Shown here piece after piece: positions 34,554-56,122 of a stretch of 64,000 bases of DNA. A program made the position numbers and the translations under genes. Below the pieces are notes generated by a model. That model was not told the origin of the DNA, made no database searches, and worked only from the letters and a program-made list of their open reading frames with translations. This DNA comes from Cycloclasticus sp. (GTDB lineage: Bacteria; Pseudomonadota; Gammaproteobacteria; Methylococcales; Cycloclasticaceae), in NCBI GenBank assembly GCA_002700385.1, contig PADC01000006.1, positions 744,001 through 808,000 of the forward strand. The letters run 5' to 3'. Numbering within the stretch: the first letter of the stretch is position 1; every line of letters starts with the position of its first letter.

Positions 34554-35720
34554 ATGCGCCACCATATTATGCCAACGTATGCATCGATGCCGGTTCGCTT
34601 TACTAAAGGCGAAGGCGCATGGCTATGGGATGAAAAAGGCAACAAATACCTTGATGCTTTATCAGGCATCGCTGTTTGTGGCTTGGGCCACGCACATCCG
34701 GAAATCGCGCATGCAATCAGCGAACAGGCCAATACCTTAATACACACATCTAACTTGTACTACATTGACAAGCAAGAAAAGCTGGCTGACAAATTGTGTG
34801 AATTAACCGGCATGAATGACGTCTTTTTTGGAAACTCTGGCGCAGAGGCAAACGAAGCTGCTATTAAAATAGCGCGTCGCTTTGCCTATAAGAAAAATAT
34901 CGATCAGCCAATCATCGTTACCATGAATAAAAGTTTTCATGGCCGCACACTGGCCACCTTAACTGCAACGGGTAATTCTGCCGTTAAAGAAGGTTTTTCA
35001 CCGCTACCCGAAGGTTTTAGGCATATTCCTTACAATGACATCAATACCTTAGATATTCTATCAAAGCAATTACCTCATATTGTTGCCGTCCTTGTTGAAC
35101 CCATCCAGGGTGAAAGCGGTATTCATATCCCTGCTTCGGATTATTTAAATAAACTCAGCGCATTATGTGAAAAAAACGATTGGTTGTTAATGTTGGATGA
35201 AATCCAAACAGGCGTAGGACGCACCGGTCATTTTTTAGCCAGTCAACAAAACGGCATCAAAGCCGATGTCATCACCATGGCTAAAGCCCTTGGTAATGGC
35301 GTCCCCATTGGTGCCTGTTTATCTTCTAACAAAGCCAGCGGGCTTTTAACTGCTGGTTCTCATGGCTCAACATTTGGCGGCAACCCCTTGGCTTGCGCTG
35401 CCGCCCTTAAGGTTCTTGAGATTGTTGAACGCGACCAATTAGCAAAACGCGCATGGGCTTTAGGCAACCACATGGGCAAGGTTTTTAAAACAAAGTTAGA
35501 ACATTGTGATCACGTTGTTGAAATACGGCAAAAAGGGCTGATGATAGGTATTGAGTTATCATCACCCTGCCCTGAACTCGTTACTAAAGCGCTAGAAAAA
35601 AAGCTTCTCATTAATGTCGCTGGTGGCAACACTGTTCGCTTGTTACCCCCTCTTACTCTAAGTGATGACGAGGCCATGACGATCACTGATCTCGTCAGCG
35701 AGCTGATTCTTGCTCACTGA
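34554..35720 (+). CDS. argD: Acetylornithine aminotransferase ArgD
   Basis: PLP enzyme of arginine synthesis, transaminating N-acetylglutamate semialdehyde; may also serve lysine synthesis. 388 residues, class III aminotransferase: GAEANEAAIKIARR phosphate-binding turn, SFHGRT, LMLDEIQTGVGRTG with the PLP-binding Asp, Schiff-base Lys in TMAKALGNGVPIGA, and GSHGSTFGGNPLA. argF follows after 25 bases, forming an argD-argF unit. Confidence 0.95.
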   Translation: MRHHIMPTYASMPVRFTKGEGAWLWDEKGNKYLDALSGIAVCGLGHAHPEIAHAISEQANTLIHTSNLYYIDKQEKLADKLCELTGMNDVFFGNSGAEANEAAIKIARRFAYKKNIDQPIIVTMNKSFHGRTLATLTATGNSAVKEGFSPLPEGFRHIPYNDINTLDILSKQLPHIVAVLVEPIQGESGIHIPASDYLNKLSALCEKNDWLLMLDEIQTGVGRTGHFLASQQNGIKADVITMAKALGNGVPIGACLSSNKASGLLTAGSHGSTFGGNPLACAAALKVLEIVERDQLAKRAWALGNHMGKVFKTKLEHCDHVVEIRQKGLMIGIELSSPCPELVTKALEKKLLINVAGGNTVRLLPPLTLSDDEAMTITDLVSELILAH

Positions 35721-35745
35721 CCCACTATTTTTGTAAAGTACCCGC

Positions 35746-36648
35746 ATGAAACCACGACATTTTATTACCTTAAACGACTTAAGTGCTGATGAGCTACGCG
35801 CTATCATTCAACGCGCTATCGAGTTAAAAAAAATGCGCACCGATGGCGTGATCTTTGAACCGTTAAAAAATAAAGTGCTTGCGATGGTTTTTGAAAAATC
35901 GTCAACACGCACTCGTATTTCGTTTGAAGCCGGGATGACGCAGTTTGGAGGTAGTGCCTTATTTTTATCACCTCGCGATACACAATTAGGAAGAGGAGAA
36001 CCCATTGAAGATTCTGCGCGGGTGATTTCTCGCATGGTCGACGGCATTATGTTACGCACAAATGATCACAAGACCGTCACCGCCTTTGCCGCCCATTCCA
36101 AGGTACCGGTTATTAATGGTTTAACTGATCGATTCCATCCATGCCAACTTCTCGCGGATTTGCAAACATGGTTCGAGCTGCGCGGCGATATTAAAGGCCA
36201 TCACGTTTGCTGGATTGGAGACGGTAATAATATGTGCCAATCATATATAAATGCAGCCAAGTTACTGGATTTTCAATTAACCATCGCCTGCCCTCCAGGT
36301 TACGAGCCAGAAGAACAACTGCTGACTTCAACCTCTACCCATGTCAAACTCTTTCACGATGCGAAGCAGGCAGCTAAAAATGCCGACTTGGTCGTGACAG
36401 ATGTTTGGGCCAGCATGGGCCATGAAGAAGAACAAAAAATACGTGAAAAAGCCTTTGCTGACTTTCAAGTAAACCGTCATATAATGTCTACCGCACAACC
36501 TGATGCGCTATTCATGCATTGCTTACCGGCACACCGTGAAGAAGAAGTAAGCGCCGAGGTATTGGATGGACAACAAAGCGTCGTCTGGGACGAGGCAGAA
36601 AATCGATTACACGCTCAAAAAGCGTTATTAGAATTTTTAATGGCTTAG
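35746..36648 (+). CDS. argF: Ornithine carbamoyltransferase
   Basis: Makes citrulline from ornithine and carbamoyl phosphate. 300 residues with carbamoyl-phosphate motif [10 protein letters not shown] (about 52-61), the second-domain HPCQLLADL, and the ornithine-site [12 protein letters not shown]. Downstream of argD in the same direction. Anabolic role is inferred from the arginine-synthesis neighbours. Confidence 0.96.
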
Positions 36649-37373: not shown

Positions 37374-39068
37374 ATGTCTGACAAAAAACATGATATTAGG
37401 AAATTTTCTTCCCCGGTAGTGGATGGTATGGAGCGGGCACCAAGCCGCGCCATGTTACACGCCGTAGGGTTTAATGATGCCGACTTCAAAAAACCTCAAG
37501 TTGGCATTGCATCCACTTGGGCAATGGTGACCCCCTGCAATATGCACATCAATGATTTGGCAGATGATGCAGCGAACGGAGTCAACGACGCTGGTGGTAA
37601 AGGTGTTGTTTTTAACACGATCACCATTTCTGATGGAATCTCAATGGGTACTGAAGGCATGAAGTACTCGTTAACCTCACGTGAAGTTATCGCCGACTCC
37701 ATTGAAACAGTCGTCGGCTGTCAAGGTTATGACGGCGTTGTGGCTATCGGAGGCTGTGATAAAAACATGCCGGGCTGCATGATTGCTTTAGCCCGCCTCA
37801 ACCGCCCGGCTATTTTTGTTTATGGCGGCACTATTTTATCGGGCTGCCATAAACAACGTAAATTAGACGTTATTTCTGTCTTTGAGGCAGTAGGCGCTCG
37901 CGCAAACAACCTCATCAATGATGAAGAACTGCATGCCATTGAATCAAAAGCGATTCCCGGGCCGGGATCTTGTGGCGGCATGTACACCGCTAACACGATG
38001 GCTTCAGCCATTGAAGCCATGGGCATGAGTTTGCCAAATAGTTCTGCTCAAGCCGCCATTTCAGATGACAAGAAAAAAGACTGCGAAGAAGCCGGCAAAG
38101 CCGTACTTAAATTACTAGAGCTTGACATCAAACCACGCGATATCATGACCCGCAAAGCATTTGAAAATGCCATTACGGTGGTCATTGCTCTGGGTGGATC
38201 AACAAATGCCGTTCTTCACTTGTTAGCCATGGCTCATAGCGCCAATGTTGAACTTAAACTAAGCGATTTCACGACCATTGGCAAACGTGTGCCTATGGTG
38301 GCTGATTTAAAACCCAGCGGCAAATATTCAATGGGCGAGTTAATCGAAATCGGCGGCATCCAGCCTTTGATGAAAATTCTCCTGGAGGCCGACTTACTTC
38401 ATGGTGATTGCCTCACTGTGACCGGTAAAACATTGGCTGAAAACTTAGCAGATGTTGAGCCCTACCCCAGCGATCAAGACATCATTCATTCATTGGATAA
38501 CGCCATCAAGAAAGACAGCCATCTGGTCGTGCTTCATGGCAACCTGGCTGCTGAAGGTGCCGTGGCAAAAATCACCGGCAAGGAAGGCTTAGGTTTTACG
38601 GGTACAGCCCGTGTTTTTGATTCTGAAGAAGATTCAATGGCCAGCATTCTTAATGGCTCAATAAAAGAAGGTGATGTTCTGGTTATTCGATACGAAGGCC
38701 CCAAAGGCGGTCCGGGCATGAGAGAAATGCTGGCCCCAACATCCGCCATCATGGGCAGAGGTCTGGGCGACAAAGTGGCCTTTATCACCGACGGTCGATT
38801 CTCGGGCGGCACGCACGGCTTTGTGGTTGGCCACATCACACCCGAGGCTTACCAAGGAGGCGTTATCGCTATTGTTGAAGATGGTGACACCATTACCATT
38901 GACAGTGTGAAAAATGAATTACGCCTTCATCTTGATGATGACGTAATTCAACAACGCCTCGCCAACTGGACAAAGCCAGCACCTCGCTACACGCGCGGCG
39001 CGCTCGCTAAATATGCCGCGTTAGTGAATTCAGCCTCTGAAGGTGCTGTCACAGATAAACTGGGGTAA
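37374..39068 (+). CDS. ilvD: Dihydroxy-acid dehydratase
   Basis: Fe-S enzyme of isoleucine, valine and pantothenate synthesis. 564 residues of the IlvD/Edd family with the three cluster Cys at about 55 (TPCNMH), 128 ([10 protein letters not shown]) and 200 ([14 protein letters not shown]), and [10 protein letters not shown] near the C-terminus. The shorter length relative to the 610-residue enteric enzyme matches the second IlvD subgroup. Other ilv genes are absent here. Confidence 0.95.
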
Positions 39069-39116: not shown

Positions 39117-40280
39117 TTGGCCAAACCGCTTAACACATTGGATATGATGCGTGCCTTAATTGGCACGCCCTCGGTGAGCAGTACAAATAAAACGCACGAT
39201 CAAAGTAATTTACCCGTCATTCACTTATTAGCCGACTGGCTGGAAAATTTGGGTTTTGCCGTCACAATTGTTCCCTTGCCTAATCACGCGGGAAAGGCCA
39301 ACCTCATTGCGACCATTGGTCCGTGCTATAAGGGTGCAAAGGGCCTTGTTTTATCGGGGCACACCGACACGGTGCCCTACGATGATAGCAAATGGCAACA
39401 AGACCCTTTTAAATTAACTGAAAAAAATAACCATTTTTACGGTTTAGGCAGTACGGACATGAAGTCCTTCTTTGCCCTGGCTATTGACGTTGCCTCCCGA
39501 TTTAAAGCAGCCGATTTTAAGCGCCCCCTCACCCTGCTCGCAACAGCGGATGAAGAAAGCGCCATGAGCGGTGCTCAGGCCTTAAGCAATGAGCAACTGC
39601 AACACGCAAAGTATGCCATCATTGGAGAACCCACCGGTATAACGCCTATACGGATGCATAAAGGCGTCATGATGGAATCCATCGTTGTTACGGGCCACGC
39701 CGGCCATTCAAGCAATCCAACTTTAGGGGCCAGCGCAACCGAAGGCATGCTCAAGGTGATGGATGAATTACTAAAATGGCGAGAAGACCTGCAACGAAAA
39801 CATCAAAACCCTGCGTTTGACATTGCCTCACCCACCATGAACATTGGCTCCATTCATGGTGGCGACAACCCCAACAGAATTTGCGCCCACTGCGAAACGC
39901 AAATTGATATTCGACCGCTTCCAGGTATGGACATTGATTTATTACGTGCCGATTTGCAAAAGCGGTTAGTCAACATTTTGCCTGAAGACAGTAAACTAAC
40001 ACTTATTTATCGGCCTATTTTCTGCGGTGTTCCGGCGTTTGAAACCGCCGCTGACGCACAGTTTACTCAGCTGACTGAATCGCTCAGTGGAAAAAAAGCG
40101 CAAGCCGTAGCCTTCGGTACTGAAGCGCCCTATCTCAATAAACTGGGCCTCGATACCCTTGTTATTGGCCCCGGTCATATCGACCAAGCTCATCAAGCCA
40201 ACGAATATATACCGGCGAATCAGATCACACCTTATTGCAATTTATTGCAAAATTTAATTAAAAACATCTGCATTAAATAA
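39117..40280 (+). CDS. argE: Acetylornithine deacetylase
   Basis: Zinc hydrolase releasing ornithine from N-acetylornithine. 387 residues of the M20 family: LSGHTDTVPYD with zinc His and Asp, ATADEESAMSG catalytic Glu, GEPT, dimerisation lid with GHAGHSSNP, and GPGHIDQAHQANEYI near the end. The frame needs a TTG start (LAKPLNTLDMMRALIGTPS); a shorter form could begin at the internal ATG pair. The presence of ArgE with a full ArgA indicates the linear rather than the cyclic acetyl route. Confidence 0.93.
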   Translation: MAKPLNTLDMMRALIGTPSVSSTNKTHDQSNLPVIHLLADWLENLGFAVTIVPLPNHAGKANLIATIGPCYKGAKGLVLSGHTDTVPYDDSKWQQDPFKLTEKNNHFYGLGSTDMKSFFALAIDVASRFKAADFKRPLTLLATADEESAMSGAQALSNEQLQHAKYAIIGEPTGITPIRMHKGVMMESIVVTGHAGHSSNPTLGASATEGMLKVMDELLKWREDLQRKHQNPAFDIASPTMNIGSIHGGDNPNRICAHCETQIDIRPLPGMDIDLLRADLQKRLVNILPEDSKLTLIYRPIFCGVPAFETAADAQFTQLTESLSGKKAQAVAFGTEAPYLNKLGLDTLVIGPGHIDQAHQANEYIPANQITPYCNLLQNLIKNICIK

Positions 40281-40333
40281 CTATATTTGCAATTTATATC
40301 ATAAAATTAATTATATTTTTTGCATTTATTGCA
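40235..40333. repeat. Five TTGCA repeats before argA
   Basis: TTGCA begins at 40235, 40245, 40287, 40320 and 40329, each in very AT-rich sequence. The first two lie in the tail of argE, the last ends 21 bases before the argA ATG. Pairs are spaced 10 and 9 bases, about one helical turn, as expected for a multi-site operator. I did not find the motif before argD, argF or argE. Confidence 0.6.
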
Positions 40334-40354
40334 TTTTAATTTTAATATTCACGC

Positions 40355-41899
40355 ATGACCTACGATGCAAACTTCATCATCCAGCAATTTGGCGGTGTTA
40401 AAAAATTAGCCAAGGCCATTAACAAAGATCCTGCCACCATTTATCGTTGGACCTATCCAAAAAAAAGGCAAGGAACCGGTGGCCGAATACCTTCGTCTGC
40501 TCTCAATGGCATTATCAAGGCGGCGGCGGCTTTAAATATCTCGCTTGAGCAACAGCCCAGCTCTGTTTCTACAACACAGCTGTCAACACAACCTCACCAA
40601 TTTATACATTGGTTCCGACAGACCGCCCCTTATATTCATGCCCATCGGGGCAAAACTTTTGTTATATACATCAGTGGTGATGCCGTTAACGATGCCTTGT
40701 TTTCAACGTTGATTGAGGATATTGCCTTACTCCACAGCTTAGGCATTCGGCTTATCCTAGTGCATGGAATTCGCCCACAATTAGAAAAAAAGCTCGCCCT
40801 TTATCATCATTCAAGTCAGGTGTTTCAGCACCTTCGTGTCACAGACAAACTAACACTCGACTTAGCTAAAGAAGCCACTGGAGTTGTTCGCGCGGATATA
40901 GAAGCTAAATTAGCCACCAGTATCTCAACTCTCGCCTCCTCTAAAACCACTATAAAAATTGCGTCTGGAAATTTTATTCTTGCCAAACCGTTAGGCGTTA
41001 TTAACGGGGTAGATTACCAATTTACCGGTGATGTTCGACGCGTCAATGGTGACGCTATCTCAAACCTTCTATCTTCGGGGCAAGTCCTTCTTATTTCTCC
41101 ACTAGGATATTCACCCAGTGGCGACATTTTTAACCTTCGCAGCGAAGAAATAGCCACCGCTATTGCCACTGAAATAAAAGCCGACAAACTGATTTTAATG
41201 ACCGAGCAGGCTGAAGTACTGAGCACAAACAAAAAGCTTATTCGCCAACTCACCACAGAGCAAGCGCAAGCCTTACTGAAGACGTCAACGAACGATCAGG
41301 ATGACGCTTATCTTCATCTCCAAGAAGCTATCCGCGCCAGTCAATTAGGTGTCAAACGCGTCCATTTAGTGGATCGAAAAATTAACGGTGGGTTACAGCT
41401 AGAACTTTTTACGCGCCAGGGATCAGGAACCATGATCTCCGTCCAACCTTTTGAAGATGCCCGCCCAGCCAACATTAATGACCTACATGGCATCATTGAG
41501 TTGATTAGGCCGTTAGAAGCACGTGGGCTGCTCAGCTATCGGTCGAATGAAACCCTCGAGATGGACATCGATAAATTTCACGTGATTGAGCAAGATGGCC
41601 TAATAACAACTTGCGCAGCCTTATATGAATACCCTAATGAGCAAATGGCTGAACTGGCCTGCGTTGCCGTCCACCCAGACTATCGAAATGGCGAGCGCGG
41701 CGAATATTTATTAAGCATGATTGAAGACAAAGCGCGCTCCAAAGGCCTAAAGCATTTATTTGTCCTCACCACGCAAAGTAGCCACTGGTTTGCTGAAAAA
41801 GGCTTCTTCCCGGCAACACTCAATGATTTACCCGTTGCAAAACGCCAGAACTACAATCAAACTCGCCGTTCTATTGTGATGATAAAGGCCTTATCATAA
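40355..41899 (+). CDS. argA: N-acetylglutamate synthase ArgA fused to an N-terminal DNA-binding domain
   Basis: First enzyme of arginine synthesis, acetylating glutamate. 514 residues, about 75 longer than usual. Residues 6-65 (FIIQQFGGVKKLAKAINKD, then ATIYRWTYPKKRQGTGGRIP) form a YdaS/carph-isopro type helix-turn-helix. A Ser/Thr/Gln linker (about 68-83) joins it to a complete ArgA starting FIHWFRQTAPYIHAHRGKTF: amino-acid kinase domain to about 345, then GNAT acetyltransferase (LACVAVHPDYRNGERGEYLL). No ATG, GTG or TTG lies in the linker, so it is one protein. A regulatory role for the extra domain is inferred. Confidence 0.93.
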   Translation: MTYDANFIIQQFGGVKKLAKAINKDPATIYRWTYPKKRQGTGGRIPSSALNGIIKAAAALNISLEQQPSSVSTTQLSTQPHQFIHWFRQTAPYIHAHRGKTFVIYISGDAVNDALFSTLIEDIALLHSLGIRLILVHGIRPQLEKKLALYHHSSQVFQHLRVTDKLTLDLAKEATGVVRADIEAKLATSISTLASSKTTIKIASGNFILAKPLGVINGVDYQFTGDVRRVNGDAISNLLSSGQVLLISPLGYSPSGDIFNLRSEEIATAIATEIKADKLILMTEQAEVLSTNKKLIRQLTTEQAQALLKTSTNDQDDAYLHLQEAIRASQLGVKRVHLVDRKINGGLQLELFTRQGSGTMISVQPFEDARPANINDLHGIIELIRPLEARGLLSYRSNETLEMDIDKFHVIEQDGLITTCAALYEYPNEQMAELACVAVHPDYRNGERGEYLLSMIEDKARSKGLKHLFVLTTQSSHWFAEKGFFPATLNDLPVAKRQNYNQTRRSIVMIKALS

Positions 41900-48035: not shown

Positions 48036-48431
48036 ATGAAAAAACAACTGGTATTCCCCGCATTACTCATGAGTGTATTTGTTACCCCTTCCTTCGCAGA
48101 CTTTGGAGATAAGGTTGAAAATCGCCTTGATAATAAAGGTGATCGTATTGAAAACAGATTAGATCATCGAGGTGACCGGATAAATAACCGACTTGATCAC
48201 AAAGGCGATCGTATTAATGAGCGCTTTGACAATCGCGCTGATAAAGCCCTTGAAATGGGTCACAGCAAAGCCGCTGCCAAATTAGAAAATAAAGGGCAGC
48301 GCTTGAGTAACCGTCTGGATAGAAAAGGCGATAGAATTGACCATCGTCTAGACCAAAAAGGCCACCGAATTGATCGCAGGCTTGACCATAAAGGCAATGC
48401 ATTCAATAACCAGTGGAATAAGAAACGCTAG
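48036..48431 (+). CDS. Secreted hendecad-repeat protein of unknown function
   Basis: 131 residues. A signal peptide ends FVTPSFA (residue 21). The rest is built from an 11-residue unit resembling INNRLDHKGDR, four copies, then a spacer (ALEMGHSKAAAK), then about three more. The repeat keeps one hydrophobic residue and Leu in NRLD, with alternating Arg/Asp and Lys/Gly-Asp, so a charged helical rod is likely. The protein is strongly basic and acidic at once with no Cys. Function unknown; periplasmic or surface location is inferred. Confidence 0.85.
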   Translation: MKKQLVFPALLMSVFVTPSFADFGDKVENRLDNKGDRIENRLDHRGDRINNRLDHKGDRINERFDNRADKALEMGHSKAAAKLENKGQRLSNRLDRKGDRIDHRLDQKGHRIDRRLDHKGNAFNNQWNKKR

Positions 48432-50701: not shown

Positions 50702-52321
50702 CTAAATGTCATCAGCTTGGTCTCTTAACGTAAATTTTTGAATTTTCCCTGTGGACGTTTTAGGCAAATCGCCAAACACTACAAATTTTGGTGCCTTATA
50801 GTGCGCCAAATTTTCCCTGCAAAACGATATGATGTCTTTTTCAGTTACCTGCTGACCTTCTTTTAAAGTCACGAAAGCACAAGGTTTTTCACCCCAGACA
50901 TCGTCTTTCTTGGCGACTACCGCTGCTTCAAAAATGGCAGGATGACGGTACAATACTGACTCAACTTCTAAAGTGGATATATTCTCCCCGCCAGAAATAA
51001 TAATATCTTTTGATCGATCTTTAATATCTATATAACCATCTTCATGCCATACCGCCAAATCACCTGAATGAAACCAGCCACCTTTAAACGCTTCTTCCGT
51101 CGCGGAAGGGTTTTTCAAATAACCTTTCATGACATTATTGCCCCTCATGAAGACTTCACCCAGACTCACACCATCTTTCGGCATGGGCTCCATCGTTTCC
51201 GGATCGGCAACCATCAAATTTTCTAACATAGCACTTCGCACCCCTTGCCTTGCTCTAAGAACGGCCTGTTCTTCAACCGGTAAATCTTCCCACTCTTCAT
51301 GCCAAGCACAAACCGTACACGGTCCATACGTTTCGGTTAGACCATAAACATGCGTCACGCTAAAGCCCATTTCTTCCATTTGCTGAATGACAGAGGCCGG
51401 AGGCGCAGCCCCTGCTGTCATCACTTTTACAGTCTGTTCAATACCTTTTTTATGCTTTTCAGGGGTATTAATCAACATGGTCAAAACCGTTGGGGCGCCA
51501 CAAAAATGATCCACTTTTTCAGACTTTATCAACTTAAAAATAGTTTTCGGCAAAACGCTGCGTAAACAGACATTAGTGCCCGCTGATGCCGCAATGCTCC
51601 ATGGAAAACACCACCCATTACAATGAAACATCGGCAATGTCCAAAGGTAGACAGGGTGATTCCCCATATCCCAAGTCACCACATTACTCATTGCATTTAA
51701 ATACGCCCCCCGGTGGTGATACACCACTCCTTTCGGGTTACCCGTGGTACCTGACGTGTAATTCAATGTGATGGATTGCCATTCATCCTCTGGTAATCCC
51801 CATTCAAAAAGCTGACTGCCTGCTTCAAGGAACGATTCATACTCAATCTCACCAATCAAACGGCCGGCTTTAAATGTTGCGTCTTCAACATCAACCACAA
51901 AAGGAGAGACTTCTGCTTCTTTTGCCGCGGCGGCCATCACATCTGAAAATTAACCATCAATGAAGATGGCCTTGCTTTCAGAATGATCCAGTTGAAAGGC
52001 CACTGACTTAACATCCAATCATGTGTTAATGGTATGCAACACAGCGCCTAACATTGGAACCGCAAAATGCAACTCAAACATCGCAGGAATATTTGGCAGC
52101 ATCGCTGAAACAGTATCCCCTTTTTTTATGCCTTTTCGAGACAAGGCGGAAGCGAGTTTAACGCAGCGGATGTATGTTTCCGCCCAAGTAAATGTCTGTT
52201 CGCCATGGACACAGGCTGGTTTATTTGGGTAAACATCTGCCGCTCTTTTTAAAAAGGTCAGCGGGGACAGTGATACATAATTAGCCGGATTTTTATCCAG
52301 CGACATATCAAAAAGATTCAT
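50702..52321 (-). pseudogene. Acyl-CoA ligase (DmdB-like AMP-binding) with two in-frame stops
   Basis: The whole 540-codon frame is intact apart from two nonsense codons: TGA at 52021-52019 (after TINT) and TAA at 51952-51950 (after FIDG). N-terminal part MNLFDMSLDKNPANYVSLSPLTF, AMP-binding motif YTSGTTGNPKGVVYHHRG and C-terminal GKIQKFTLRDQ are all present in one frame with no indel. In relatives the first stop position is normally Arg after NT (CGA to TGA would do it). It resembles the methylmercaptopropionate-CoA ligase DmdB group and sits beside a DmdC-like dehydrogenase. Whether it is decayed, misread or rescued by readthrough is unknown. Confidence 0.85.
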
Positions 52322-52440
52322 GCATAAAAACCTATTTTTTATTCTTAATAAGTCAAATATAAAAACGTGATGCGCTTGTCACAAACAGTCATCACCCTGC
52401 TGAAAAGCAGCATGATGACTTTCTACGTTTAAAGTTCTGT

Positions 52441-54325: not shown

Positions 54326-56122
54326 TTAGCTTTTATGAAGTTTAAACACCCATAATGAACCCCCTTGATTAAGCGTTTTGATACGCTTTGCAACATCGCC
54401 ACCCCACAATGGAACAGCGCCGCCCCAACCAGAAGGAACCGCGATAAACTGCTCTCCATCCATTTCCCAAGTGACAGGAATACCAACAATGCCGGAGCCC
54501 GTTTGGAATCTCCACAGTAATTCCCCTGTTTTTGCATCCAGTGCATTTAAATACCCTTCAGGCGTTCCAAAGAAAACCAAGTCGCCGCCGGTTGAAAGAA
54601 CGCCGCCCCAGAGAGGTGCGTTATTTTTATGCTCCCAAACCCATTGGCCCGTTTTAGGGTCAATGGCGCGCAAAGCGCCAATGTAGTCTTCATAAAGTGG
54701 CTTAATGGTGAACCCCGCTCCTATATAAGCCGCGCCCTTTTTATAAGTGACCGTTTCATTCCAAAGGTCCATGCCCCATTCGTTGCTGGGCACATAGAAC
54801 AAATCGGTTTTTGGACTATACGCCATTGGCATCCAGTTTTTACCGCCTAAAAAGGAAGGCGCTGTAAAGATTGTTGAGCCTTTTTTTCCTTCCGATTTAG
54901 CTGGGTCACCTGGACGAGCGTTAGGCGTTTCAATTGGGCGGCCTGTTTTAAGATCAACACCCGTTGCCCAATCTTAACGAGTCACAAACGGGTTTGCAGA
55001 AATTAACTGACCGGTTTTGCGGTTAATAACATAGAAAAATCCATTACGATCCGCTTTTGCACCTGCCTTGATGACCTCATCTCCTTTTTTAAGATCAAAA
55101 GAAACGAACTCATTCACACCATCAAAATCCCAACTTTCATTCGGTGTTGATTGATAATGCCAGACTATCTTACCTGTTTCAGGGTCAATCGCCACGGTTG
55201 AAGCAGAATACAAGTTATCACCCGGGCGCAAATAAGCATTCCATGGTGCCGGATTTCCTGTTCCGAAAAATAGTAACCCGACTTCTGCATCATACGTTCC
55301 CCCAAGCCATGTGGCTGAACCACCCGTTTTCCACATATCTCCTGGCCAGGTTGCACCACGCGTTCCTGAAATCCCGTTCTCAATTTTTTCGCCGTCTTTA
55401 TACTTTCCATTTTTTTGTTTAACCGCGGGGCCGTACTTATAGCCCATATGCCCTTCAATAACAGGACGGGACCATACCATCGCACCCGTTAGCGCATCAC
55501 GTGCCTCAACACGGCCTACTACGCCAAACTCACCACCCGATACCCCTGTAATAACTTTCCCATTAACGATAATTGGCGCGGCTGTTAACGAATATCCTGC
55601 CTTGTAGTCATCTACCTTTTTCTTCCAAACGACTTTGCCCGTTTCTTGGTTAAGCGCAACAATTTTCGCATCCAACGTACCAAAAATTACTAAATCACCG
55701 TATAAGGCAGCCCCTCGATTAATAACATCGCAACACGGCAGAATTCCATCAGGTAAACGATGATTATATTCCCAGAGTTCCTGGCCTGTTTTTGCATCAA
55801 TTGCAAAAAGGCGTGAATAAGAAGCGGTGACAAAAATTCTGCCGTTATAAACCACGGGTTGCGCTTCTTGGCCTCTTTGCTTTTCACCTCCGAATGAAAA
55901 AGACCAGGCCGGCACCAAATCTTTAACCGTTTCTACATTTATTTTAGATAACGGACTGTAGCGTTGCGCTTTTGTACCGATACCATACGACACAACATTT
56001 TCCGTGTTCATCGCATCGTTGAGAATATCCTCATCTGTCACACCAGCATGAGCAACACTCAGCGATAACACGGCAGCACCAAAACAGATGCCAATAGCTG
56101 ACTTTAATCGACTAACTTCCAT
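54326..56122 (-). pseudogene. Lanthanide-type PQQ methanol/alcohol dehydrogenase (XoxF-like) with one in-frame stop
   Basis: Periplasmic quinoprotein dehydrogenase, about 598 codons. Signal peptide ends VAHA (residue 26). The vicinal disulfide Cys130-Cys131, metal ligand Glu198, Asn290, catalytic Asp332 and the extra Asp334 (WDFD) are present; that extra Asp marks lanthanide use, as in XoxF and ExaF. A single TAA at 54976-54974 after FVTR splits it; the reading frame continues unbroken with [15 protein letters not shown] to the stop at 54326. The C-terminal half carries the [12 protein letters not shown] and [12 protein letters not shown] blocks. No cytochrome xoxG or xoxJ is next to it. Confidence 0.9.

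Follow-up and report, generated by a model that had tools for sequence, protein, structure and literature searches.

What would an N-acetylglutamate synthase (NAGS; ArgA) do with a helix-turn-helix (HTH) domain at its N-terminus, which DNA would that domain bind, and where did it come from? These questions are raised by a single argA gene in a 64,000-nucleotide stretch of a Cycloclasticus genome (the window). Bacteria of this genus rank among the main marine degraders of aromatic hydrocarbons and also live as symbionts of mussels and sponges. An initial annotation, made from the letters of the window, had described one 514-residue frame joining an HTH to a complete NAGS, with no alternative start in the linker, and had suggested that the enzyme may also bind DNA, coupling arginine feedback to transcription. 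The description of the frame held. It runs from ATG to stop without an internal stop codon and encodes an HTH of ~64 residues, a variable linker, and a complete NAGS, in that order (Table 1), and ATG, GTG, and TTG are all missing from linker codons 65 to 100. A profile search of the N-terminus for HTH similarity, proposed at the same time, returned carph-isopro (NF046037) at residues 8 to 64 (E 1.9e-10).

Table 1. The argA fusion gene, its parts, its predicted control region, and neighboring genes (window coordinates)
Feature	Position	Strand	Evidence
Nearby arginine genes argD and argF, no box upstream	34554..36648	+	box search
ilvD, neighbor; ilvD-argE-argA order common to sister families	37374..39068	+	frame, neighborhood comparison
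argE (acetylornithine deacetylase), upstream neighbor, 74 nt 5' of argA	39117..40280	+	frame, neighborhood comparison
Predicted argA operator, TTTTGCATTTATTGCATTT; right arm diverged in this species (TGCAT, not YGCAA)	40318..40336	+	alignment, matrix searches
Putative -35 position TTGCAT, 17-nt spacer to TAATAT	40320..40325	+	inferred
Putative -10-like TAATAT, ends 6 nt before ATG	40343..40348	+	position and TAnnnT conserved in most congeners; inferred
argA fusion gene, Cro-type HTH and N-acetylglutamate synthase, 514 aa	40355..41899	+	frame, NCBIfam profiles, congeners
Cro-type HTH, residues 1-64 (helices 5-12, 15-21, 26-31, 47-59)	40355..40546	+	NF046037, AlphaFold pLDDT 89, Foldseek
Linker, variable and low-confidence, residues 65-81	40547..40597	+	conservation, predicted model
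N-terminal helix and amino-acid-kinase domain, residues 82-340	40598..41374	+	PF00696 at 100-340; N. gonorrhoeae NAGS match
Arginine-binding motif ELFTRQGSGT, residues 350-359	41402..41431	+	PMC4490483 motif; defining residues invariant in genus
GNAT N-acetyltransferase domain, residues 367-513	41453..41893	+	PF00583, 3e0k

The Fusion Is Conserved throughout Cycloclasticus

A search for other ArgA proteins with the same N-terminus found the full-length fusion in 16 of 18 Cycloclasticus genomes, that of the window included, always stop-free and 61 to 78% identical to the window protein. One of the remaining two genomes (G003) carries only the N-terminal part of the fusion, at a contig end, and in the other (G010, 83% complete) neither argA nor the HTH domain was found. 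In G010, argB, argH, carA, and argJ were present and argA and argC were unmatched, which may mean that the assembly is incomplete or that the arginine pathway is reduced there. With full-length copies in 16 of the 18 genomes, the fusion is not an artifact; frameshift, chimeric assembly, and chance are excluded as its source. Of the two separating events named in the initial annotation as what would undo its reading, a frameshift is ruled out by a frame that stays open and aligned across these genomes, and a second start is made improbable by the lack of start codons in the window linker.

Beyond the genus, we scrutinized progressively wider samples with searches aimed at this HTH, which an ArgA joined to another kind of HTH would escape. 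Across the order, 16 of 311 genomes from 50 genera encoded the fusion, all of them Cycloclasticus, and it was not found in the 293 genomes of other genera. Nor was it found outside Cycloclasticus in a sample of the class (369 genomes), in a sample of the phylum (398 genomes), or in a peptide-pattern scan of 84,980 species. Among the matches listed outside the genus in the class sample, no alignment started before about residue 49, so that all of them lie past the HTH. The one extra match in the pattern scan, from a Geobacter MAG, was rejected on finding no ORF with such a domain there. Within the genus, conservation is strong in the HTH, with the recognition-helix region IYRWTYPK among the parts that vary least, and does not extend to the linker; the argA N-terminus is the sole match per genome to the carph-isopro model.

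The Enzyme Part Is a Classical NAGS

Two NAGS models matched residues 78 to 513 over their whole length, TIGR01890 with 534.7 bits (cut-off 202.85; E 1e-160) and PRK05279 with 584.8 bits (cut-off 344; E 1e-175), and by these profiles the enzyme part is a classical NAGS. Its nearest solved relative is the Neisseria gonorrhoeae enzyme (2r8v, 3d2p). The arginine-binding motif of NAGS, E-(L/I)-(F/M)-(T/S)-x-x-G-x-G-T (PMC4490483), is intact (E350LFTRQGSGT359), its defining residues being invariant in the genus. The protein shares with classical bacterial NAGS a complete amino-acid-kinase domain, a GNAT domain, and the arginine-binding motif, and differs in its length (514 versus ~440 residues), in the extra N-terminal DNA-binding domain, and in the promoter of its gene, which is its own and bears a candidate operator. 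A second full ArgA was not found in the Cycloclasticus genomes, where the second match was ArgB-like. ArgJ is encoded in all 18; therefore, given the known role of ArgA beside ArgJ, this ArgA may be mostly anaplerotic.

The N-Terminal Domain Resembles Phage Cro

The initial annotation had called the N-terminal domain YdaS/carph-isopro-like, a small domain that normally occurs as a separate prophage-type or antitoxin-type regulator. The HTH stood, and NF046037 scored on either side of its cut-off of 38 bits, with 40.8 bits for the N-terminus alone, 35.1 in the whole protein, and 32 to 40 bits across congeners. The antitoxin or YdaS-type assignment did not, as the YdaS toxin family PF15943 scored below its gathering cut-off (18.4 versus 30 bits; E 0.002), and the domain points to phage Cro instead. 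P22_Cro (PF14549) fell just below its own cut-off (27.8 versus 30.2 bits; E 2e-6). AlphaFold predicted the N-terminal part with confidence (pLDDT 89) as a small domain of helices; in the model of the whole protein, the linker that comes next is of low confidence. When the HTH model was compared with the PDB using Foldseek, the best matches were Cro proteins, namely Xfaso 1 Cro and operator-bound N15 Cro, with P22 Cro lower; probabilities reached 1.00 and TM scores 0.57 to 0.72, with E-values of 0.06 or more, which are weak owing to the very small size of the domain.

Among standalone proteins, those most similar in sequence come from phages, with up to 54% identity. Two phage records annotate them as Cro or Cro-like, and in one of these records the protein adjoins a CI-like repressor. 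The HTH and its closer phage relatives have the signature (V/I)YRWTYPK..GGT.G.IP in common. Judged by predicted fold and by sequence, the domain is thus of the Cro type, and 'carph-isopro' and 'YdaS' are best read either as names that databases give to such a domain or as weak matches to it. With phage Cro proteins (P22, N15, and Xfaso 1 Cro, and the Cro-like protein of Paracoccus phage Pben1) it shares the fold; with the closer relatives, the signature; and with phage Cro in general, a palindromic predicted operator in the promoter region of its own gene. Unlike them, it is fused to an enzyme and encoded on the chromosome, with ilvD and argE as neighbors and no adjoining cI. The best carph-isopro match in a genome of another family of the order (62.6 bits) is likewise the N-terminal part of a long frame (L061, 373-1944, minus strand), by its sequence another domain fusion, the remainder of which resembles a RhuM-type protein.

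A Conserved Palindrome Marks the Promoter of Fused argA

In aligned upstream regions, all 16 fused argA genes are preceded, ~20 to 25 nt before the start, by the palindrome TTTGCR-N5-YGCAAA, in fuller form close to TTTGCR-TTTTN-YGCAAA, although the shared ancestry of these congeners means that the 16 promoters are not 16 independent events. The two arms pair at 81% of positions in register versus 28 to 51% when slid, with too little variation for a covariation test. Because the left arm lies ~16 to 18 nt upstream of a TAnnnT box, any protein bound there would sit over the -35 element and spacer of a probably leaderless argA promoter. The -10 reading rests on conservation, a consensus promoter scan having made no call at the argA promoter, and the -10 position differs in two loci (L012 and L013). 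A second half-site occurs 28 to 32 bp upstream in 9 of the 16 promoters, versus 0.15 expected.

In a leave-one-out analysis, 11 of 15 sites outscored all 127,964 positions of the window. For the other four, between one and three positions scored as high or higher, among them the argA site of the window itself. When whole genomes were searched with the matrix, the argA box was the top match in 15 of 18, including G003, which was not used in building the model. It ranked fourth in the window's own genome, with three sites elsewhere scoring higher; G009 has a variant 1 bp longer, and G010, without argA, gave background scores only. Most other pattern matches that we inspected lie within genes, and one in G000 (C12:740892) was rejected for this reason. 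The box was absent upstream of unfused argA in the sister families. It was not found upstream of argB, argC, argH, or carA in five congeners, nor of argD, argF, or argE in the window (argG lay outside the set), and the genome-wide search revealed no recurrent second target in the 18 genomes. From these matrix searches, the target appears to be argA alone rather than an arginine regulon.

Two further elements in this region were considered as operators. A site ~70 to 100 bp upstream of argE in most congeners (score up to 22) was rejected because it encodes LAKYAK at the C-terminal end of ilvD and is accounted for by conserved codons. TTGCAA units spaced 10 bp apart at the argE 3' end (window 40230-40280; -120 to -87) are also conserved in most congeners. 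They were not counted, as they may only reflect the conserved coding of PYCNFLQ...NICIN, and may owe their conservation either to constraint on the protein sequence or to a former array of operators.

The Same Palindrome Occurs beside Phage cro Genes

We scanned 15 distinct phage loci that encode related Cro proteins with a matrix derived solely from the argA boxes of Cycloclasticus. Ten sites scoring at least 16 were recovered in seven of the loci, compared with 0.36 on average in shuffled sequence (maximum 3) and 0.09 with column-permuted matrices. Of the 200-nt regions before phage cro, 9 of 19 were significant, whereas none of the 18 controls was (Fisher p 1.5e-7). In locus L187, the cI-like and cro genes are divergent, and the DNA separating them holds the sites TTTTGCGATCTACGCAAAA and ATTTGCGACACTCGCAAAG and, in between these two, a third, related palindrome; paired sites stand 33 to 34 bp apart in L173, L177, L178, and L184. 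In contrast, the operator regions of lambda, P22, and N15 gave no match to the matrix. Since matches occur at related phage cro genes and not at those of lambda, P22, or N15, DNA motif and protein family go together by sequence, in phages and in Cycloclasticus alike. The DNA-binding reading of the initial annotation thereby gains support from three sides, namely the genus-wide conservation of the HTH, its predicted Cro fold, and an argA-promoter palindrome, conserved alongside it, that matches sites beside phage cro.

Predicted operators of the form TTTGCG-N5-CGCAAA and variants such as TTTACG-N5-CGTAAA are recognizable in six loci with YRWTYPK-type Cro (L173, L177, L178, L184, L185, and L187), and site pairs in such phages are ~33 bp apart. 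Operator variation between these loci could yield the recognition code of the family.

A Captured cro Gene Would Make ArgA an Autorepressor

The distance between argE and argA is 61 to 75 nt in Cycloclasticus, whereas in sister families, which share the argE neighborhood with unfused argA, the two genes range from overlapping to at most 16 nt apart where measurable. The longer gap contains the box and the -10 element, which is most simply explained if a phage cro gene, promoter and operator included, was inserted between argE and argA and then fused to argA. We therefore propose the following course of events. A Cycloclasticus ancestor would have captured a phage cro gene, with promoter and operator, between argE and argA, and a flexible linker would have come to join the captured frame to argA, yielding a NAGS with DNA-binding domains of the Cro type. 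In the ArgA oligomer, these domains would work in pairs, binding TTTGCR-N5-YGCAAA across the -35 and spacer of the promoter and keeping RNA polymerase out, so that the enzyme represses its own promoter. We consider this account, capture and autorepression together, probable on the comparative sequence evidence; within it, we infer that the domain binds, that binding represses, and that the gene was captured.

Whether arginine would modulate such repression is a more speculative matter. Arginine moves the N-terminal helix of N. gonorrhoeae NAGS, changes the hexamer by 10 to 20 Å, and widens its ring (PMC4490483). Given these movements and an HTH tethered just before this helix, arginine control is plausible by analogy: the moving helix and widened ring would alter the spacing of HTH pairs and make repression arginine-dependent. 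The fuller proposal, that ArgA is an arginine-responsive autorepressor in which movement of the hexamer ring sets the spacing of captured Cro domains on a phage-derived operator, merging feedback and repression, is tentative, and we give it slightly less than even weight.

Other readings of the HTH and its box must be weighed against autorepression. The box could be the site of a separate regulator, with the HTH serving in oligomerization or protein-protein contact or persisting as a relic. Some HTH domains do serve as protein contacts, and binding of this one to the box is a prediction; yet the box accompanies fused and not unfused argA, the same palindrome lies beside standalone phage relatives of the HTH and not beside unrelated Cro genes, and IYRWTYPK is among the best conserved residues while the linker is not, which makes this reading unlikely. 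Less likely still, in our estimation, are two parts that are made or end as separate proteins, a Cro-like autoregulator and an ordinary ArgA, through an internal start or cleavage of the linker. The variable, low-confidence linker could be cut, but the window linker lacks start codons, and a frame kept open in 16 species without stop or frameshift is unexpected if separation were the functional state; we regard this reading as highly improbable.

A functional HTH could also belong to a repressor of the whole arginine regulon that replaced ArgR and acts at many arg genes. ArgR (PF01316) is indeed absent from the whole genus, and ArgA would sense arginine. However, ArgR is equally absent from the sister families, which lack the fusion, and the other arg genes searched carry no box, just as no second target recurs genome-wide; a regulon repressor is accordingly quite improbable. 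Because the sister families are also without ArgR, the fusion did not simply take its place, and for the same reason loss of ArgR was rejected as the driver of the fusion. An autorepressing ArgA thus remains the preferred reading.

Relation to Known Regulators and Fusions

PutA, BirA, and NadR of Escherichia coli are trigger enzymes (PMC8249747), metabolic enzymes with a DNA-binding domain of their own, a likeness that extends to Cycloclasticus ArgA in sequence and predicted fold. PutA also acts at its own gene, as proposed here for ArgA. The three differ from it in enzyme, pathway, and type of DNA-binding domain, and DNA binding by ArgA is predicted. If the allosteric reading is right, ArgA would resemble ArgR in coupling arginine to transcription; ArgR is an unrelated, regulon-wide protein. 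Arginine-pathway enzymes have been rearranged through domain fusion before, in ArgH-NAGS and NAGS/K (PMC4490483), where enzyme is joined to enzyme and none is described with a DNA-binding domain.

The initial annotation knew of no described ArgA of this kind, and our search of the open literature agreed, finding no paper on an HTH-ArgA fusion or on 'carph-isopro'. Cycloclasticus ArgA is probably a new trigger enzyme, a NAGS with a Cro-type domain, a combination described in no report found among open papers. To our knowledge, trigger enzymes are few and their origin has mostly been guessed. Here, the steps may be readable from genomes, from phage cro relative and operator to inserted promoter and a conserved fusion protein that only one genus has, the sister families with their unfused argA serving as controls. 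Arginine synthesis in bacteria without ArgR would gain a concrete, testable form of control, and one enzyme, one operator, and one ligand would make a simple system for asking how enzyme allostery drives DNA binding.

Other Features of the Window

Elsewhere in the window, an AMP-dependent (acyl-CoA) synthetase gene (50702-52400, minus strand) has in-frame TGA (52019-52021) and TAA (51950-51952) codons in a frame that otherwise continues, and is probably a pseudogene. A single in-frame TAA (54974-54976) divides a PQQ-type dehydrogenase gene (54326-56122, minus strand) into two ORFs, which probably reflects either a pseudogene or a sequencing error. A small secreted-looking protein encoded at 48036-48431 (plus strand) is built of repeated RLDxKGDRI/NRLDHKGDRI units.
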